From Halocafeteria seosinensis (lineage: Eukaryota; Sar; Bigyra; Bicosoecida), in NCBI GenBank assembly GCA_001687465.1, contig LVLI01000360.1, positions 1 to 58,504 of the forward strand: a stretch of 58,504 bases of DNA. The letters run 5' to 3'. Both the position numbers and the translations under genes were made by a program. The notes under the pieces were generated by a model that saw only the letters and a program-made list of their open reading frames with translations, was not told where the DNA came from and ran no database searches. Below are positions 24,396 through 58,251 of this stretch, piece after piece. Position 1 is the stretch's first letter. Every line of letters begins with the position of its first letter.

Positions 24396-24701
24396 TGTAT
24401 TACTCTAGGTGGTCGGTCAGGTGCCAGATGCATCAAATACGGGCGAAAAATGCTTGTAAAGCAATAAGCACGCTCCTGCGGCTCCCCTGTAGAAGGGGCC
24501 GGGAAACAACAAAAAGGGTCTAGGGAGAGCGGATCCCCTTGGCTCTCCCCTGAGGAGATTGATTGAAGGCAAGCCGTCATTCTTTTCTTGGACTTTTGAT
24601 TGAATGCTCTACAGGTGTCGTCTGGAGGGAGTCTAAAGGCTCGTGTATGACGTGCATGTGAGGTTGTTTGAGGGGAAGAAAAAGGCCGATTAAAGAGAAT
24701 A
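24396..24701. promoter_or_regulatory. Divergent promoter region AP4B1/SF3B1
   Basis: 306 bp between two divergent ATGs. Contains purine/pyrimidine-biased stretches but no element that I can name. Open frames on the minus strand here (up to 24718) lack homology and are not called. Confidence 0.35.
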
Positions 24702-27700
24702 ATGTCTTCTTCTTCCAATGGAGATAAAAAGGGCGTACCCTTGGGCGCACAAGGGAACGAAGAATACGATTATGAGGCCACCTCTATCTCCAAAGGCAGC
24801 AATTTTGCCCAGGAAGTGCAGGATGATAATGACGATGTAGGGCATAATGGAGCTGCCGCTGGCGCTGCTACCGAGTATACTACACGGGAAGACGATGACG
24901 AAGAAGATATTGACCCTGGAATGGACACAGGAGGTACACATCCGGCAACAAAAGCTGCTATTGAACAACAGAAGAAAAGACTCAAAGGAAAATCATCTTC
25001 CTCTAGTGGCCGAGGCGAAGATGCTGCTGGTGCAGCCGGTATAGGGGATGACGATGATCCGTTCAAATCCTATCGTGAAGGCGTCACAGGGAAGAAAGAC
25101 ACAAGACTCAGTGCAAAGGAGACGTCCTACCACAAGAGAAAATACGAACGAGACCTTTCGCCGGAACGAGTTGATGCTTTTGGAGGGAAAGATGAAGGCC
25201 AGGGGCGTAGTTATAAAGAGGTTATGGAAGCGACACAGGTTGAGCGGGAGAAGAAAGAATACGAACAGAAAATTGCCAAGGAACAAGAAGAGCGGGAACG
25301 TCTCCAAGAGCGCACAGAGCAACAGGAGGATTATCAACAGCAAAGTGCAGCCCAGGCTGCAGCAGAAAGACGCCGCAAACGACGCCGGTGGGACACTGGA
25401 GACACTGACACTGATGCTTCCAGTGTTGCGTCTAGCACGGCGGATGGAGGGGATGATGCAGCCGATGCTACGCCCGTTGCCGGTCAAGCCCAATGGGACA
25501 AAACACCTGCAGGGCCTGAGGCTTTTGGGCCCACTCCGGCTCGAGGAGGGGCATCTAAATGGGACGAAACCCCAGGGCCTCGTCCTTCGGTAGCGGGACA
25601 AAGTTGGGAAACGCCCAAAGCGGAAGGTGCCGCAGGAGCAACACCAACCCCGAGTCGAAAGAAATCCAGGTGGGACGAAACCCCTACGCCTGCAAACGCA
25701 GCTTTGCAAAGTGCAGGGCGAGCAGCAGCTGCTCTCGCGACACCAAACACAAGCACGGTTGATATGAGCCAAATGACACCAGCTCTGGCAAAGCAGCAAA
25801 GGCTAGAACGCGAAATGGATGAACGAAACCGTCCGTTAAGTGACGAGGAACTGGATGCGATACTTCCCTCCGACGGCTACCGAATCCTTGATCCCCCGGC
25901 GAACTACCGCCCGATACGCACGCCGAGCAGGAAAATGATGTCTACACCGACACCTGCGTTGCAATCCGGTTTCCATATGCAGCAAACGCCAGCCAAGGAA
26001 CAGTATGGTGTCACGGGCTCCGCTGCAGCTCCCCCTGAAGGCGGAGAAGCCAGTGATCTCCCCTACATCAAGCCCGAAGATCAACAATTCTTCGGAGCAC
26101 TATTGGAGGAAAAAGATGAGGAACAGCTTTCTGCTGAGGAGAAAAAGGAGAGGGAAATCATGACACTGCTATTGAAAATCAAGAATGGTCTCCCACAAGA
26201 TCGTAAGAAGGCACTTCGAAACTTGACGAAGAGAGCTCGTGAATTCGGGGCTGGTCCACTTTTTAATCAAATCCTACCTTTAATGATGAGTCCTGCTTTG
26301 GAGGAGCAAGAACGCCATTTGCTTGTTAAAGTTATTGACCGGGTATTGTACAAGTTGGATGACATGGTTCGACCGTACGTCCACAAGATTCTGGTGGTTG
26401 TAGAACCGATGTTGATTGACCAAGACTATTACGCAAGAGTAGAGGGAAGGGAGATCGTATCCAACCTGGCAAAGGCTGCTGGACTAGCTCACATGATTGC
26501 TACAATGCGACCAGATATCGATAATGTAGATGAATATGTTCGCAACACCACCGCTAGGGCGTTCGCCGTTGTTGCCTCGGCTTTGGGTATTCCCGCTTTG
26601 CTTCCGTTTCTCAAAGCTGTCTGCCAGAGCCGGAAGTCGTGGCAGGCGCGTCATACAGGTATAAAGATTATTCAACAGATAGCTATCTTAATGGGATGTG
26701 CGATTTTGCCTCATTTGAGTCACATGGTGAACATTATTGCCCATGGCCTGGAGGATGATAATAGCAAAGTCCGGACGATTACAGCCCTCGCTATTGCCGC
26801 TTTGGCAGAGTCGGCTTATCCGTATGGAATTGAAGCCTTCGACTGTGTTCTCCGCCCGCTTTGGCAGGGGGCTCGACAAACTAGAGACAAAGGACTTGCC
26901 GCCATATTAAAAGCAATTGGAAACATCATCCCTCTAATGGATGCACAGTATGCGGCTTACTATACTCGGGAAGTGATGGTAACCGTGATCCGTGAATTCC
27001 AGAGTCCCGATGAGGAGATGAAGAAAACAGTCCTCCAGGTGGTAAAGCAGTGTGTAAGTACAGATGGAGTTGACTCCAAATATGTCCGAGAAGAGATACT
27101 TCCTGAGTTCTTTGCCAACTTTTGGGTTCGCCGAATGGCTGCGGATAAGAGAAACTACCAAGCCGTCGTTAGCACTACAGTTGAACTTGCGAACAAAGCC
27201 GGTGTTTCCGAAATTGTCAACCGCATTGTAGACGACCTTAAGGACGAAAACGAGCCATACCGTGGCATGGTCATGAGTGCGCTGCAAGAAATAATAAAGA
27301 ATCATGGAGCCGCGGACATTGACCAACCATTGGAGGTTCGACTCGTTGACGGTCTCATTTACTCATACCAAGAGCAAGCATTGGAAGATTATGCTAAGAC
27401 GATTCTCAAGGGTTTTGGCGTCATTGCCACTGCTCTGGGTGAACGAACAAAACCATATCTACCGCAAATACAAGGAACCATCACATTCCGTTTGAACAAC
27501 AAGTCTGCGAGAGTACGCATGCAGGCTGCGGATTTGATTACAGAAGTTGCCCATGTTATGAAACTGTGTGGAGAAGAAGATAGTCTTGCACATTTGGGCC
27601 AAGTTCTGTACGAAAACTTGGGAGAAGAGTATCCAGAAGTCTTGGGGTCTATCATTGGTGCTCTCAAGAGTGTTGCCTCTGTTATTGGTGTTTCAAGGCT

Positions 27701-28802
27701 CCGTCCTCCTGTTAACGAAGTACTGACTAGCTTAACGCCGATTCTGAAGAATCGCCACGAAAAGGTTCAAGAGAAGACAATTGAACTTGTAGGCCTCATT
27801 GCGGATCGCGGAGCCAACTCGGTTCACGCCAAGGAATGGATGCGAATCTGCTTTGACCTATTGGAGCTCTTGAAGGCTGGTCGAAAGAGTATCCGGAGGG
27901 CAACTGTCAATACTTTCGGGTTTATTGCGAAGGCCATAGGACCTCAGGATGTGTTGCATACACTGCTTAACAATCTCCGAGTCCAAGAGCGGCAGCTGCG
28001 TGTGTGCACTACCATCGCCATAGCCATTGTGGCGGAGACATGCCAACCGTTCACGGTACTGCCAGCGTTGATGAACGAATATCGCGTTGCAGACATGAAC
28101 GTCCAGAATGGCGTACTTAAAGCGATGTCATTCATGTTTGAGTACATAGGCGAAATGAGCAAGGATTATATCTATGCAGTAACACCACTACTACAGGATG
28201 CTCTTATGAGCCGAGATATGGTCCATCGTCAGATTGCTTGCAATGCAGTGAAGCACATTGCTCTAGGGGTCCAGGGACTGGGGTGCGAGGACTCCTTGAC
28301 GCATCTGCTCAACTATGTTTGGCCTAATATTTTCGAGACGAGTCCTCACATTATGAACGCAGTCTTCGAAGCTGTCGAAGCTCTTCGTGTTAGTTTAGGT
28401 CCGGGGAGAATAATGCTTCATTTACTGCAGGGGTTATATCATCCAGCACGACGAGTTCGAGAAGTCTACTGGAAGATCTACAATAATGCCTATGTCTACT
28501 CGTCTGATGGATTGGTGCCATTTTATCCTCGTTTGGTTGAAGATGACGATCGAGTCGATAAGATTGCGAGAGCGAAGTTGCAAGCTCTAGCTCAAGAGAA
28601 GAATGTCTTCGTCGATGGAGAAAGCAAACGCCAAAATAAAAAGAAGAAAACACTTAAGAAAATTGACCACTCGGGTGCTACAGCGGCCGAGACTGATGTC
28701 GTGTCGAAAGTGCTAGAAGAGGAACGAAGGCAGAAGAGAGAGAACGAAGAGCAGGCTCCAACGAACAATTACCGTCGAACGTATTTGGAGTTGGTAATTT
28801 AG
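24702..28802 (+). CDS. SF3B1: Splicing factor 3B subunit 1
   Basis: Core of the U2 snRNP SF3b complex, which clamps the branch-site helix. Single exon, 1,366 aa (human 1,304). The N-terminal 480 residues are disordered with several Trp-containing UHM-ligand motifs ([28 protein letters not shown]). From about 480 on are the HEAT repeats, with near-identity in blocks such as [80 protein letters not shown] and [16 protein letters not shown]. The Lys equivalent to human K700 is present (SKVRTIT). Unusually, about 80 Lys/Glu-rich residues are inserted between YPRL and the C-terminal [10 protein letters not shown], which in human are nearly adjacent. Absence of introns in a 4.1-kb gene is notable here. 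Confidence 0.97.
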
Positions 28803-51531: not shown

Positions 51532-52929
51532 TCATTGTGTTTCGGGTATATGCTTCGAAGATGCCTCGTGCTTTTCTATCCGCTGTTCTACACGGCGACT
51601 ACTATCATCTATCCGCGTAATGGGACATTGTTTCCTTACATGAGACTTGATTAACTTAGTCTCCTCTTCGTTACTTTCGTTTGTCCCCGCCACTTCCTTT
51701 CCTTCTTCTATCTTGCTTGACTTGATAGCTTCATGAACGCAGTATGATCGGAGCAGGTTCCGCGTCTCGTTGATGCGATGCTGAATCCGATTTAATACCG
51801 CAGCCTTCTCGTCCACTACACTTTCTGTTTCCCACTGTGAGGAGTGAATAACCATCAATGTCATTAACAATGGCAAGTACCACAAACTAGCTAGGAAAAC
51901 TGATCTTGCGTTCTTATCACTGCGTTCGCTGTAGAATTTCCAGGCCTTATATGTAACATATAGGTTTGCTGGACAGGACCAGACGGCAAACATAGGAGAT
52001 GTGACGCCCAGGGCGCTGACAACAACTGGGAGTAGACTCATAGCCACAGAGTACCCTAGAATTCCTTGTGCTGTCTCTAAACCATTTGCATCATTCAATG
52101 AAATCATTTTATATCCACCTCTGGAGTAGTCCTCACGATGCCTCCATGCGAGTGCGTAGAAATGAGGCATTTGCCAAAGAAACAGTAGTGAGGCCATGCT
52201 CATCGCTTCAGCGGTCATTATATCTCCTCCAGCCGCTGAATAACCCATAAGGGGTGGTATAGCGCCCACGACAGCACCAATGTGCGTATTGATGGGAGAC
52301 AACTGTTTTAGCGGAGTATACACCGCACTGTAAAGAGCAATATTTGCGGCGCCGAGAATTGCCGTCATGGGATTGCAACCAAAATAAAGAACCCCTACAC
52401 CTGTCCCACCGGCTAATACACCAAATATTGACGCTTGCGTAGGAGATAATCGCCCTGAGGGTAAGGGACGAGCCCGGGTTCTGTGCATTTGACCGTCGTT
52501 CCACGTTTCATACACTTGGTTCCACGTATTCGCAGAGGCTGATGCTAACCCAGTACCGACTGCCGCGCATGCTAGTGAGCCCATACAGCTTGGAATACCT
52601 GCCATTAAGTAGCCTGCAGCTGAAGAAGCCACCACTAACCCCGTTAATCTGGCTTTGGAAAGCTGCATATACGGTCTAATTTCGCGCTTCCATGACGTCC
52701 CGCGGACTCCAGAGCCACCATTGTTTGAAGCAGAGACGTCTCGCCTTCGTTTCCTCTTGTGGATAGACCCTAAAGTGGACTGTGCATCATGCTGTAAACC
52801 ATTGTTTCCGGGGGGTAAATGGCTGGAAGAGGCCCGGAGGAGCAGTCCCGTGGCGGACCTTTTACAGACTCCCAGAGGACCTTTTACAGACAAACCACCT
52901 AGTGGTTTGCATCGTCTTGATAACATCAT
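51532..52929 (-). CDS. COX10: Protoheme IX farnesyltransferase COX10
   Basis: Mitochondrial inner-membrane enzyme that converts heme B to heme O for cytochrome c oxidase. Single exon, 465 aa. The N-terminal about 80 residues are basic, a presequence. The UbiA prenyltransferase domain follows with SKARLTGLVVASSAAGY, the Asp-rich motif NTWNQVYETWNDGQMHRTR with RPLPSG, YTPLKQLSPINTHIGAVVGA, FLWQMPHFYALAWRHREDY and GYKMISL. Eight or so hydrophobic helices are visible. An 85-residue charged C-terminal extension after the last helix is longer than usual. Convergent with IFT81 (55 bp between stops). Confidence 0.93.
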   Translation of the reverse strand: MMLSRRCKPLGGLSVKGPLGVCKRSATGLLLRASSSHLPPGNNGLQHDAQSTLGSIHKRKRRRDVSASNNGGSGVRGTSWKREIRPYMQLSKARLTGLVVASSAAGYLMAGIPSCMGSLACAAVGTGLASASANTWNQVYETWNDGQMHRTRARPLPSGRLSPTQASIFGVLAGGTGVGVLYFGCNPMTAILGAANIALYSAVYTPLKQLSPINTHIGAVVGAIPPLMGYSAAGGDIMTAEAMSMASLLFLWQMPHFYALAWRHREDYSRGGYKMISLNDANGLETAQGILGYSVAMSLLPVVVSALGVTSPMFAVWSCPANLYVTYKAWKFYSERSDKNARSVFLASLWYLPLLMTLMVIHSSQWETESVVDEKAAVLNRIQHRINETRNLLRSYCVHEAIKSSKIEEGKEVAGTNESNEEETKLIKSHVRKQCPITRIDDSSRRVEQRIEKHEASSKHIPETQ

Positions 52930-53316: not shown

Positions 53317-54705
<1,389 letters not shown>

Positions 54706-54884: not shown

Positions 54885-57800
54885 TTACATGAATCGCGCG
54901 AGTTCGTTGCGTTGAGAATTTTGCCTACCAGCCTTGCGGGAATGTGAGCTCTGTTGGGACACAGGGTGCGTCGGCGACACAGCCATTGCCGCCGAAAGCT
55001 GAGGCGTGCTTCTCCTTCTAGTGCTCGAATCCGTACCACGTGGTCCCGGCCGGTGCTCAGATGAAGGGCCCTGAGAAGTCTGCCTCGCTTCTGCCATTAG
55101 ATTGTCCAACGTGTCCTCTTCTATGAAATGCTCCCTCTTCAATAGGGAACGGGCAGACTGGGGCTCTGTTCTCTTCTTGGAATGCTTGGGGATCGACTCC
55201 AAGGTGAGAGCAGACAAGGAGTCATGCTTTTTGGGGGCTTCACTCGTGCTATCTGAATTGGAGCCGAGTAGGCCCCTACTCGCTGACTTGCGAAAGGTGT
55301 CGCCCTGACGATGTGATGGTGTAGGGGCGGTTTTAGACATTGAATCCTTGCTGGCTGTGGAAGACTCACTTTGGGAGTTACGAGGGGTGCTGCTTACTTG
55401 AGCTGTCACATCCTTGTCTTTAGACTTATCGCCTGTATCAGCACTGTTGGATTTTGAAGCAGCAATTGTACTACTAGTATCCCGAGATCTGGCAGAGCCT
55501 TTGTTTCTTCTGCCAGCGAAAGGATTTGCTGGGTTACGAGGAGCGCCTACAGGCTGGTGAGCGCTTCGTGGCTCGTGTGATCCAGAAGTATTTTCTTCTG
55601 AAGAAGTGCTCGACGTTCTCCTGGGTTTGTTCGATGATGTGGAGCTACCCGCATTTTTCTCGGGGGGCTTGCTATTGCCTTGTAAGGCGTTATTAAGAAG
55701 CGTTGCACTGGGGTTCTCTATGTCTTCCTCGGCATCATAGTGTGTCCATATATTAACCGCCGCTGTTGATACGGGAATTTCCTTAGAGTCGGTAACAATT
55801 TCCTGCGGCTCGCGGAGAAGCACTACAGAAACCGAGACGTTATCCATTGATCCTTTCTCCAGGGCTAAGTGAACAAGCTTCTGTGAAGCGGCGGCGGCTG
55901 GAGCATGGATATCCGCGCTATCTCCTCCCCTGTTCTCGTGGTCCCTGATCACTGCTGTTACTTCATTCACAGCATCTTGCGAAGTCACCACATCCCACAA
56001 ACCATCGCACGCCAAGATGAGGAAACAACATGTTGAATCCAAAGGAAGTAAGCACAGCTCCGGATCAGAAGTGACCAACAATGGTGGATAGTTAGTATCA
56101 ATCTTCTCAGCAAGTGAGGCTGGTTTACGTTTGCTATCACCTTCTTTCAATTCCACCTTAGTATTAACACCCCACTTTAGAGAGGGGTCCCCAACAGCGC
56201 GTGCAACTGCGAGTCTCCCTGATACTCTACCGGCCATTACGGCACCACCAGCTGCAGCTATCCTTGCTGTTTCATCCGGACGAGCCCCAGGGTCGGCTTT
56301 ATGATCATGAGTTAATTCTAAGGCAATCATTTTGCTTCGCAATGAGGTACCATCGTAATGGTCAGCAACTTTGACCGCCATTACAGCCCTGCTGTCTCCG
56401 GCATGTGCTAGTACAGCAAAACCGGATGTATCGTTGTCTTCGAACGCTTTTGATGCTGACGACAGCGCGGCAGCGTCAACCTCACTGTTGCCAAAGTTAT
56501 ACTGGGTCATCTTCGGACCTAAAGGCAGACTAAAGTCTGTCGCGCCAACAGTCAGTGGCTCCCGATATATCAGCCGGTTAATATTTCTTTGAATTATCCC
56601 TTTCTTCGAAAGCGCCTGAGATTGGCTATCCTCACTGTCGCTACCTGGACCCGTTTCACCTGCAGTCGACCCCTTTGGCCGAACGATGACACACGCACAC
56701 ACTGTGGATCCCGAACCATCCAACATGGAAGCTGTCTTGCAGTCTTGGACACTTGGGAGGGGACAAGGCCACGAAGAAAGAATGGAATCAGAGTTGGCCT
56801 CTGGCGCATCGCTCTCCATTTGGCCAAGACCAAACGCCTCGGTCGCAGATGTACCCATTTTCGAAGCAAATTTCTCCGCATGCTCAATCAAAGATTTCGT
56901 GTACTCTGCATCCAGAGAAGAGAAAGTCCGTCTTAAGCCGTGAAGTATAGCGCTCGCCAATCGAAGGTCTGGAGACAGAGTCGTCTCCTTCTTAGCAAGC
57001 GGGTCACCCCACATGGTAGAATTGTTAGACAGTATGTGTTGCTGGATGCACTCCTTCTGGGAGATGTTACTTAGACTTTCTTCTAAAACCTTCTGCATTT
57101 GTTCGGCGATGAATTCCGATACCCGACTACCTCCATGTCCATCGTAAACTCCAAAGAGATGCGCTGACCGCTCAACGGTCTCGTTACTATCCTTAATGAT
57201 AGTTTCACGTTGTGCAGTGATATTCGAGTTCCCTACGCGTAACAGTTCCATAAGGTTACTAACGTTCACTTCCACGCCGGCGTTCATAGCATCTTCCATT
57301 TGTGGCCGCCGACCCTTGGCTTCAGATTGTCCCCATGAAAGAAAGGGTTCCTTCCTTACTTCTGCGTTTCGCTCCTTTGGTGTGTCCTGGTTACCACTTG
57401 TAAGCGGCTGGTGTGCCACACAGTTCTTTCCGATTGTAACAAGACGTGTGGATATTTTCAGGGGATCTGCTAGCTGCTGGTGCAATGCGTAGGCAACTGA
57501 AGCTAAATTGTATGTTCTCAGCCATCCAATTGCGTCAATTTCTTCCTCTCCTTTAGACGACCGAGACCCGAAATAGTTTCCATTCGAAGTGTTTCCCTGT
57601 AAAATGGCCAACTTGATTCTGCCATCGTCAGGGTTGATCTGAAAGTACGAGGAGTAGCTATCAAGGAACCATCTCGAAGTGCATCGGATCACCGGTGGAG
57701 TCGACGGATACGCCATGGGTATCCTAAACTGCAGTTCAAAAACACCCGCAATTATGTAAGTGTAGCTAAAAGCAAGACAAATCCGCAAGGACGATTCCAC

Positions 57801-58251
57801 GTACGTTAAACTTGATGGGTCGGTTCAGCACCGAATGCCGCGTAGCATGCGGGTAGAATGTCACGTTAAACTGGGCCAAGTTTTGGAGCTTAGTTATGTC
57901 AATCTTCGACAATACAGCTTGAGTATCTGATTGAGGAATCTCGTTCCCTTTCTGCGCTTCCTGATTCTGCTGCTGCTGCTGGTTAGATTTCTCAGATGAC
58001 TTCCGAGAGGCGGCTGCAGAGTCTGTAGCGGCAGCACTATCACTCCCGGACCTCGCGCTATTGCTAGCAGTATCACTGCTCTTATTCCGATGGGATTCTT
58101 GGTCTTCTGTCTCTTCATCGGAATCAATATCGGCCGCGCAAAGTTTGCACACATCAGTCGATGTGGCAGGGGGTAAGTTCGACAGTAGATGCACGACATC
58201 ATTGGCGCCTCGTGTCATCTTGGGGCTCTTCTTACCGCTGGTCGACATCAT
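54885..58251 (-). CDS. Pseudo-E2 (UBC-like) and PP2C phosphatase fusion
   Basis: Two exons from 58251 down: 57805-58251 and 54885-57728 (1,096 aa), 76-nt GTACGT..GCAG intron. Residues 1-112 are acidic/Ser/Gln-rich. Residues about 113-240 are a ubiquitin-conjugating fold: KLQNLAQFNVTFYPH, the FRIPMAYPSTPPVIRC strand pair rebuilt by splicing, INPDDGRIKLAIL and LASVAYALHQQL. Lys188 sits where E2s have the catalytic Cys and the HPN motif is missing, so it is probably inactive. Residues about 285-800 are PP2C: GRRPQMEDA, FGVYDGHGGSRV (Asp345), VLAHAGDSRAVMA, LELTHDHKADPGARPDE, LAVARAVGDPSLKWG, ILACDGLWDVV and SMDNVSVSVV, with metal-binding Asp residues present and a long insert. The C-terminal 300 residues are Ser-rich and disordered. 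Nearest E2 relative looks like the NEDD8 class. Confidence 0.85.

Follow-up and report, generated by a model that had tools for sequence, protein, structure and literature searches.

What does a domain that resembles a ubiquitin-conjugating enzyme (E2), but with Lys at the position of the catalytic Cys, do ahead of an intact PP2C phosphatase? The question is raised by a gene on the minus strand, in the terminal part of a 58.5-kb contig of Halocafeteria seosinensis (LVLI01000360.1), of which the whole stretch of 58,504 nucleotides was analyzed and is referred to here as the window. The spliced two-exon gene encodes a protein of 1096 amino acids (aa) in which an E2-like (UBC) domain is followed by a PP2C domain and a Ser-rich tail. 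The results described below suggest that the E2-like domain is a UEV-like module that places the phosphatase, docking in general being the probable function. As far as our searches reach, both domain types are known, and their pairing and its conservation are new.

A scan of the locus revealed many formal GT..AG pairs that join the two reading frames. The pair at 57804/57729 (GTACGTGG...CTGCAG), which had already been chosen in an earlier reading made from the letters of the window (the sequence-only reading), restores PIKFN followed by FRIPMAYPSTPPVIRC across the junction. P0001, a EukProt open reading frame (ORF) from transcript gb/GECG01008979.1, includes the junction (PIKFN followed by FRIPMAYP) together with both domains; relative to the spliced window protein, it shows three one-residue insertions and one substitution across 1099 aa. 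A relative of the same architecture, P0002, is 61% identical over residues 105 to 430; as stored, it carries a further 24 residues in frame at the junction, ending in ...PLQ before CRIPMAYP, which we read as the same intron left in by the gene finder. Transcripts assigning the first exon to another gene had been named beforehand as one observation that would speak against the fusion; the transcript ORF P0001 instead spans the junction, which indicated that the two-exon gene is real and that the first exon belongs to it. When the organism's own genome (30.6 Mb in 605 contigs) was searched with exon 2, the eight matches were the locus itself and seven to the PP2C part only (query residues 431 to 644), and the fusion was thus seen in a single copy.

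In the E2-like core, 99 of 129 residues (77%) were identical between P0001 and spliced P0002, versus 36% of the aligned residues in the acidic linker that precedes it and 43% in the tail; the domain is therefore more than a chance feature of the protein. The Pfam family UQ_con matched exon 2 with E=3.5e-5 (23.9 bits), P0001 with E=2.6e-4 and P0002 as stored with E=0.0018, all three short of the 27 bits set as the curated cut-off. In a six-frame search of the genome, the window locus scored 27.5 bits, just above that cut-off, and the domain cut from the window protein scored 25.5 bits (E=1.1e-5), with RWD as its second Pfam match. At E<=1, UQ_con matched five of the six members of the family described below, among them P0007, both whole (1.3e-4) and as a cut domain (E=1.8e-6; 28.1 bits, above the cut-off). 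When a profile of all six members was compared with the PDB, UBE2F gave the best match (1.7e-9), UBE2A reached 2.5e-7 (8btl; the next UBE2A chain, 1e-6) and UBC12 1.9e-6; UBC12 chains were within the top ten, and the best 60 of 237 matches with E<=10 were all E2s (including a chain named Peroxin-4) or BIRC6. UBE2F was also first with the domain of the window alone (E=0.16), and a GPI transamidase chain was third. Aligned by hhalign with 13 E2s or E2 pieces, the six-member profile reached a probability of 97% and a score of 67 over 67 columns; chance resemblance was rejected here, as 100 column shuffles scored at most 17.9. A P-x-x-P-P motif, a Gly ahead of the active-site strand and a G-W ahead of helix 2 are invariant in the six members. 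By sequence, the homology to the UBC/E2 superfamily takes in helix 2 as well as the beta-sheet and the active-site strand, and at that level the earlier statement that the E2 part is real was borne out.

For the active site, the six members were aligned with 13 Cys-bearing E2s or E2 pieces, ten of them from the organism's own genome. The column of the catalytic Cys is occupied by Lys in P0001 and P0002, by Thr in P0003, P0004 and P0082 and by Ala in P0007; P0082 is less surely aligned there and carries a Cys two positions upstream. No member has the catalytic Cys in a G-x-[IV]-C-L strand, and HPN is absent from the aligned site in all six. The E2-like domain is predicted to be catalytically dead as an E2, and loss of the Cys appears to be a trait of the family; Lys marks the P0001/P0002 subgroup only, since the other members have Thr or Ala there. 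The sequence-only reading had described a dead E2 on the strength of a Lys in place of the active Cys and a missing HPN. Both observations stand, and the second extends to the other five members, whereas the weight placed on the Lys has to be reduced because of the Thr and Ala of the relatives. A missing HPN alone is no proof of inactivity, because UBE2Q and UBE2J enzymes lack it too (excerpt of PMC10971424); the missing Cys is the stronger point. The laboratory E2 UbcH5B C85K, which holds ubiquitin via a stable amide (excerpt of PMC6349121), resembles the window's subgroup in having Lys at the active-site position; it is a ubiquitin-linked mutant, whereas any such loading of the window protein is hypothetical, and HPN is missing there. 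Were the Lys of this subgroup joined to NEDD8 or ubiquitin by a similar amide, the protein would be a natural E2 mimic in a permanently charged state, holding an active phosphatase fast on a cullin-RING ligase; we regard this as very improbable, and Thr and Ala in the relatives make such loading less likely. An argument based on the E3-facing loop lost weight when checked: the residue after YP or FP is Ser, Ala or Gly in the six members, but in Cys-bearing E2s of the same genome Asn, Gln, Thr or Met can occupy this position as well. Another E2 domain in this genome (L019, G000:C329:34882-35244) retains its Cys and lies in a long open frame (1182 aa reported), perhaps that of a large multi-domain E2.

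In the phosphatase half, Pfam PP2C matched with E=2.3e-36, and the window protein contains GRRPQMED, YDGHGG, GDSR, ACDGLWD and MDNVS; the M-E-D, DGHGG, DG and DN columns of the metal site are invariant in all six members, so that the PP2C motifs are intact, as had been claimed. Rice PP2C50 (5zcl; E=6.2e-21) was among the best solved-structure matches of the domain. Plant-type PP2Cs such as rice PP2C50 and Arabidopsis PP2C 16/HAB1 share the metal-site motifs and are the closest solved structures by sequence, but the window's subgroup is set apart from them by the E2-like domain at its N terminus, by about 230 aa inserted within PP2C and by a long Ser-rich tail. Between P0001 and spliced P0002, the PP2C parts are 66% and 76% identical.

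Six proteins were found to have the E2-like and PP2C domains in this order: P0001 and P0002, which form the window's subgroup, and P0003, P0004, P0007 and P0082, which represent three others. In the first protein search, two of 3260 candidates reached E<=0.01. When the PP2C part of P0001 served as the query, scoring covered the 7993 candidates that had most words in common with it, and among the best 120 of 145 matches, which were inspected, an E2-like stretch ahead of PP2C was spotted in P0003, P0004 and P0007. A profile built from the other five members then recovered P0082 (best domain i-E, 9.4e-5); of the 115 proteins outside the seed, no other passed the HMMER inclusion threshold. Four of the six members had thus been found via PP2C similarity, and their E2-like part was noticed afterwards. 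In a scan of 236 proteins with the six-member E2-like profile, the six alone scored E<1. In a hold-out test, each subgroup was left out in turn and the profile of the rest was searched against 237 sequences; the best-domain E values of the members left out were 2.1e-9 for P0001, 3.6e-9 for spliced P0002, 9.8e-8 for P0003, 1.2e-7 for P0004, 2.8e-15 for P0007 and 1.9e-4 for P0082, and among the matches listed no non-family domain had an E value better than 0.99. A search with an alignment of the six cores is uninformative on how widespread the family is: its best 120 of 133 matches were flooded by plant PP2Cs, and P0003, P0004, P0007 and P0082 were not among them. The stored Pfam annotation of all six members is PP2C alone, which would account for the E2-like part having been overlooked so far. 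In a PP2C tree of 42 rows, from which six long-branch rows were excluded deliberately and other rows are missing because motif-based trimming did not accept them, a single branch set the six members apart from the other rows (82/82, short of the star threshold). A single origin of the fusion is plausible, not proved. The fusion looks like an old, maintained protein design and not an accident, since the same pairing is found in several very different relatives.

The sequence-only reading had noted a long Ser-rich tail, which is indeed present, with the correction that it holds recurring short motifs. NPF[A/S] occurs in five of the six family tails (P0082 being without it) and in 0 to 0.65% of 2000 shuffles per tail; NPF was found in 4 of 230 other PP2C matches, or in 1 of 24 when these were restricted to proteins of at least 700 aa. 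An acidic L-x-x-L-[L/M] motif, seen as EEDTLDNLM in the window protein and as DEDTLAFLM in P0082, is likewise present in five of six tails (0.1 to 0.3% of shuffles), and the form in P0007, GDTELMDFLM, fits only a looser pattern that is often reached by shuffles. NPF is a known ligand of EH domains; by its presence, five of the six tails qualify in sequence as candidate EH ligands, and three EH domain matches were obtained in the genome. As a lead only, the NPF tail and the EH matches may point to membrane traffic. In P0104 (544 aa, EukProt), a distant PP2C, the phosphatase is joined to an EH domain (PF12763; E=5.2e-12).

Taken together, a docking module is the best explanation of these features, because a UBC domain devoid of Cys has been kept beside an intact phosphatase and is conserved to a similar degree (77%, versus 66% and 76%). 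UEV and RWD domains (Mms2/UEV1, TSG101 and RWD proteins) are inactive UBC-type binding modules. The domain studied here, with its UBC homology and missing catalytic Cys, is UEV-like in that sense, and RWD was its second Pfam match (E=0.0042), but it scores better to UQ_con (1.1e-5) than to RWD, and by sequence it seems nearest to NEDD8 E2s. In the mechanism we propose, the E2-like domain would bind a partner and take the phosphatase to it, NPF[A/S] (a possible EH ligand) and the acidic L-x-x-L-[L/M] of the tail could add further docking, and the outcome would most likely be dephosphorylation of parts of a ubiquitin/NEDD8-linked or membrane-traffic assembly. The more specific suggestion of the sequence-only reading, a module that reads ubiquitin or NEDD8 and directs the phosphatase to modified substrates or to an E1 or E3, is a conjecture. 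We know of no UEV or RWD domain joined to a phosphatase. No title describing an E2-like-PP2C pairing was found in full-text searches of open-licence PMC papers, which is in keeping with the earlier remark that no characterized protein is known to have a UBC domain followed by PP2C.

Several observations weigh against this interpretation. The cut domains of P0003 (E=0.31) and P0082 (E=0.026) match UQ_con weakly, and P0003, P0004 and P0082 as whole proteins give PP2C alone in Pfam. With a profile of P0001 and P0002 only, a GPI transamidase chain was first in the PDB (E=0.7) and the best E2 reached 0.93; neither this profile nor the domain of the window by itself gave a significant PDB match. In one hold-out, the non-family PP2C P0207 had a whole-sequence E value of 0.048 (domain E, 1.9), and a quick PP2C tree of 56 rows requires two changes, not one, for the family. 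The tail motifs were picked after the tails had been viewed, so their shuffle rates describe and do not prove. The AlphaFold models, each from two sequences, had a mean predicted local distance difference test score (pLDDT) of 34.5 for the E2-like segment and 30.5 for the full protein. Because even PP2C, which is beyond doubt by its sequence, was not folded confidently, we attribute the failure to alignment depth and read the low pLDDT as a result of the shallow alignment, with no evidence either way on the fold. The N-terminal 40 aa, which by eye are alike to helix 1 of an E2, were dropped as a candidate for that helix after a shuffle test did not support them: of 1000 shuffles for P0001 and for P0002, 155 and 196 were as good against P0003, 145 and 226 against P0004, and 769 and 990 against P0007. 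This N-terminal stretch of P0001 (aa 1 to 40) is conserved in P0002, with 26 of 40 residues identical, and contains LPPATSTDVCKLCA and C-x-x-C.

The first alternative to docking in general is a narrower one, in which the domain derives from a NEDD8 E2 of the UBE2F type and still meets UBA3, RBX or cullin-NEDD8, the phosphatase then acting on cullin-RING ligases. With small margins, NEDD8 E2s may be the closest sequence kin of the domain: UBE2F led the PDB matches not only of the six-member profile but also of P0007 (E=0.0017), P0003 (0.11) and the window's domain, each taken singly, and the UBE2F lead together with UBC12 in the top ten fits the NEDD8 hint of the sequence-only reading. NEDD8 E2s mostly gave longer alignments (27-129 or 6-131) than UBE2A (55-133), and UBE2F and the family have in common the active-site strand followed by D-G-x-G-W. 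Against this, only P0007 reached E<0.01 as a single sequence, the UBE2F lead was not seen with the P0001 and P0002 profile, and UBE2F exceeds the best UBE2A chain by 7 bits (40.8 versus 33.8), that chain (8btl) reading Lys at the active-site column. In addition to the profile match, UBE2F and UBE2M/UBC12 resemble the family in the PxxPP strand, in the active-site strand and in having a Trp ahead of helix 2; the family differs from them in having neither Cys nor HPN at the aligned sites, so that thioester chemistry is impossible at that column, and in its fusion to PP2C. The H. seosinensis genome contains a UBC12 (UBE2M match, 2.6e-36), one UBA3 E2-binding match and eight cullin neddylation matches at six places. 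According to an excerpt of PMC8028724, NEDD8 E2s carry a UBA3 docking peptide and UBE2F has a loop inserted after the catalytic Cys. We count that loop as a further likeness to the family. By eye, such a docking peptide was not recognized in P0001 or P0003, whereas the predicted N terminus of P0004, MLAF, comes close to Met-Leu-x-Leu, the motif by which UBE2F docks. As read, P0003 has no more than about 32 residues ahead of the first strand, the predicted start of P0004 is 17 residues longer (aa 1 to 17), and the N terminus of P0001 is not alignable to the others. Kinship to the NEDD8 E2 branch differs from meeting the partners of that branch, and we consider neddylation-specific docking unlikely.

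Alternatively, the E2-like domain might fold onto PP2C and gate it, with no outside partner. The linker of only about 35 aa between the two domains and their similar conservation would suit such autoregulation, but P0001 and P0002 agree in only 48% of the aligned residues of the linker itself, inactive UBC-type domains such as UEV and RWD act as binding modules, and the full-length AlphaFold model is unusable. We judge this reading doubtful, a shade below neddylation-specific docking. The gene could also be an artefact, either two neighboring genes misjoined or a chance likeness to E2s, as might be suspected from the sub-cut-off Pfam score of the whole window protein and the weak PDB matches of the window's subgroup alone. 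This is already largely refuted by the transcript ORF across the junction; five relatives with the same domain order, the PDB profile match of 1.7e-9 and the P0007 cut domain above the Pfam cut-off also argue against it, and we consider an artefact exceedingly improbable. The coordinates of the features discussed are collected in Table 1.

Table 1. Features of the E2-like-PP2C gene, given as positions in the window
Feature	Position	Strand	Remark
Exon 1: N terminus, acidic Ser/Gln-rich linker, first part of E2-like domain (aa 1-149)	57805..58251	minus	transcript ORF P0001
Intron, 76 nt, phase 0, GTACGT...CTGCAG	57729..57804	minus	
Exon 2: remaining E2-like domain, PP2C domain, Ser-rich tail, stop codon (aa 150-1096)	54885..57728	minus	
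Acidic Ser/Gln-rich linker, about aa 41-116	57904..58131	minus	20/76 identical, 21 gapped
E2-like (UBC) core, about aa 117-245, intron-interrupted	57441..57903	minus	
YFQINPD, region of HPN motif in active E2s	57627..57647	minus	alignment
Lys188 codon, column of active-site Cys of E2s	57612..57614	minus	alignment
PP2C phosphatase domain, about aa 281-788, motifs MED, DGHGG, CDG, DN	55812..57335	minus	
Long insertion within PP2C, about aa 357-584	56424..57107	minus	63% identical, P0001 versus spliced P0002
Ser-rich C-terminal tail, about aa 789-1096	54888..55811	minus	
NPF tripeptide (NPFA), aa 884-886	55518..55526	minus	motif in 5/6 family tails
Acidic DTLDNLM motif, aa 1021-1027	55095..55115	minus	strict pattern in 5/6 tails

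Elsewhere in the window, a UbiA prenyltransferase gene (51535-52929, minus strand), a gene for the C-terminal part of a lactate/malate dehydrogenase (54322-54702, plus strand) and a gene for an SF3B1-like protein in one open frame of 1376 aa (24672-28799, plus strand) were recognized; of the eight nearby frames scanned, four gave no match and one gave weak matches only. The light-harvesting family PF00504 had no match in the genome (a control matched in 1 of 14), and the source organism is therefore probably not photosynthetic. For PfaA, no genome match above the cut-off was obtained, and two weak ones were seen.

A second, separate tie between PP2C and ubiquitin is provided by P0036 (Symbiodinium natans), P0031, P0049 and P0109, in which a domain of the ubiquitin world (PF00240) likewise lies N-terminal to PP2C; its fold is modifier-like and not E2-like, and the E2-like profile does not place these proteins with the six. 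It is known that inactive E2 domains serve the ubiquitin system as adaptors, and PP2Cs are familiar as phosphatases. Further members of the E2-like-PP2C family may be hidden in domain databases, given their annotation as PP2C only. In the family described here, one conserved protein would form a direct physical link from dephosphorylation to the ubiquitin/NEDD8 system or to membrane traffic.

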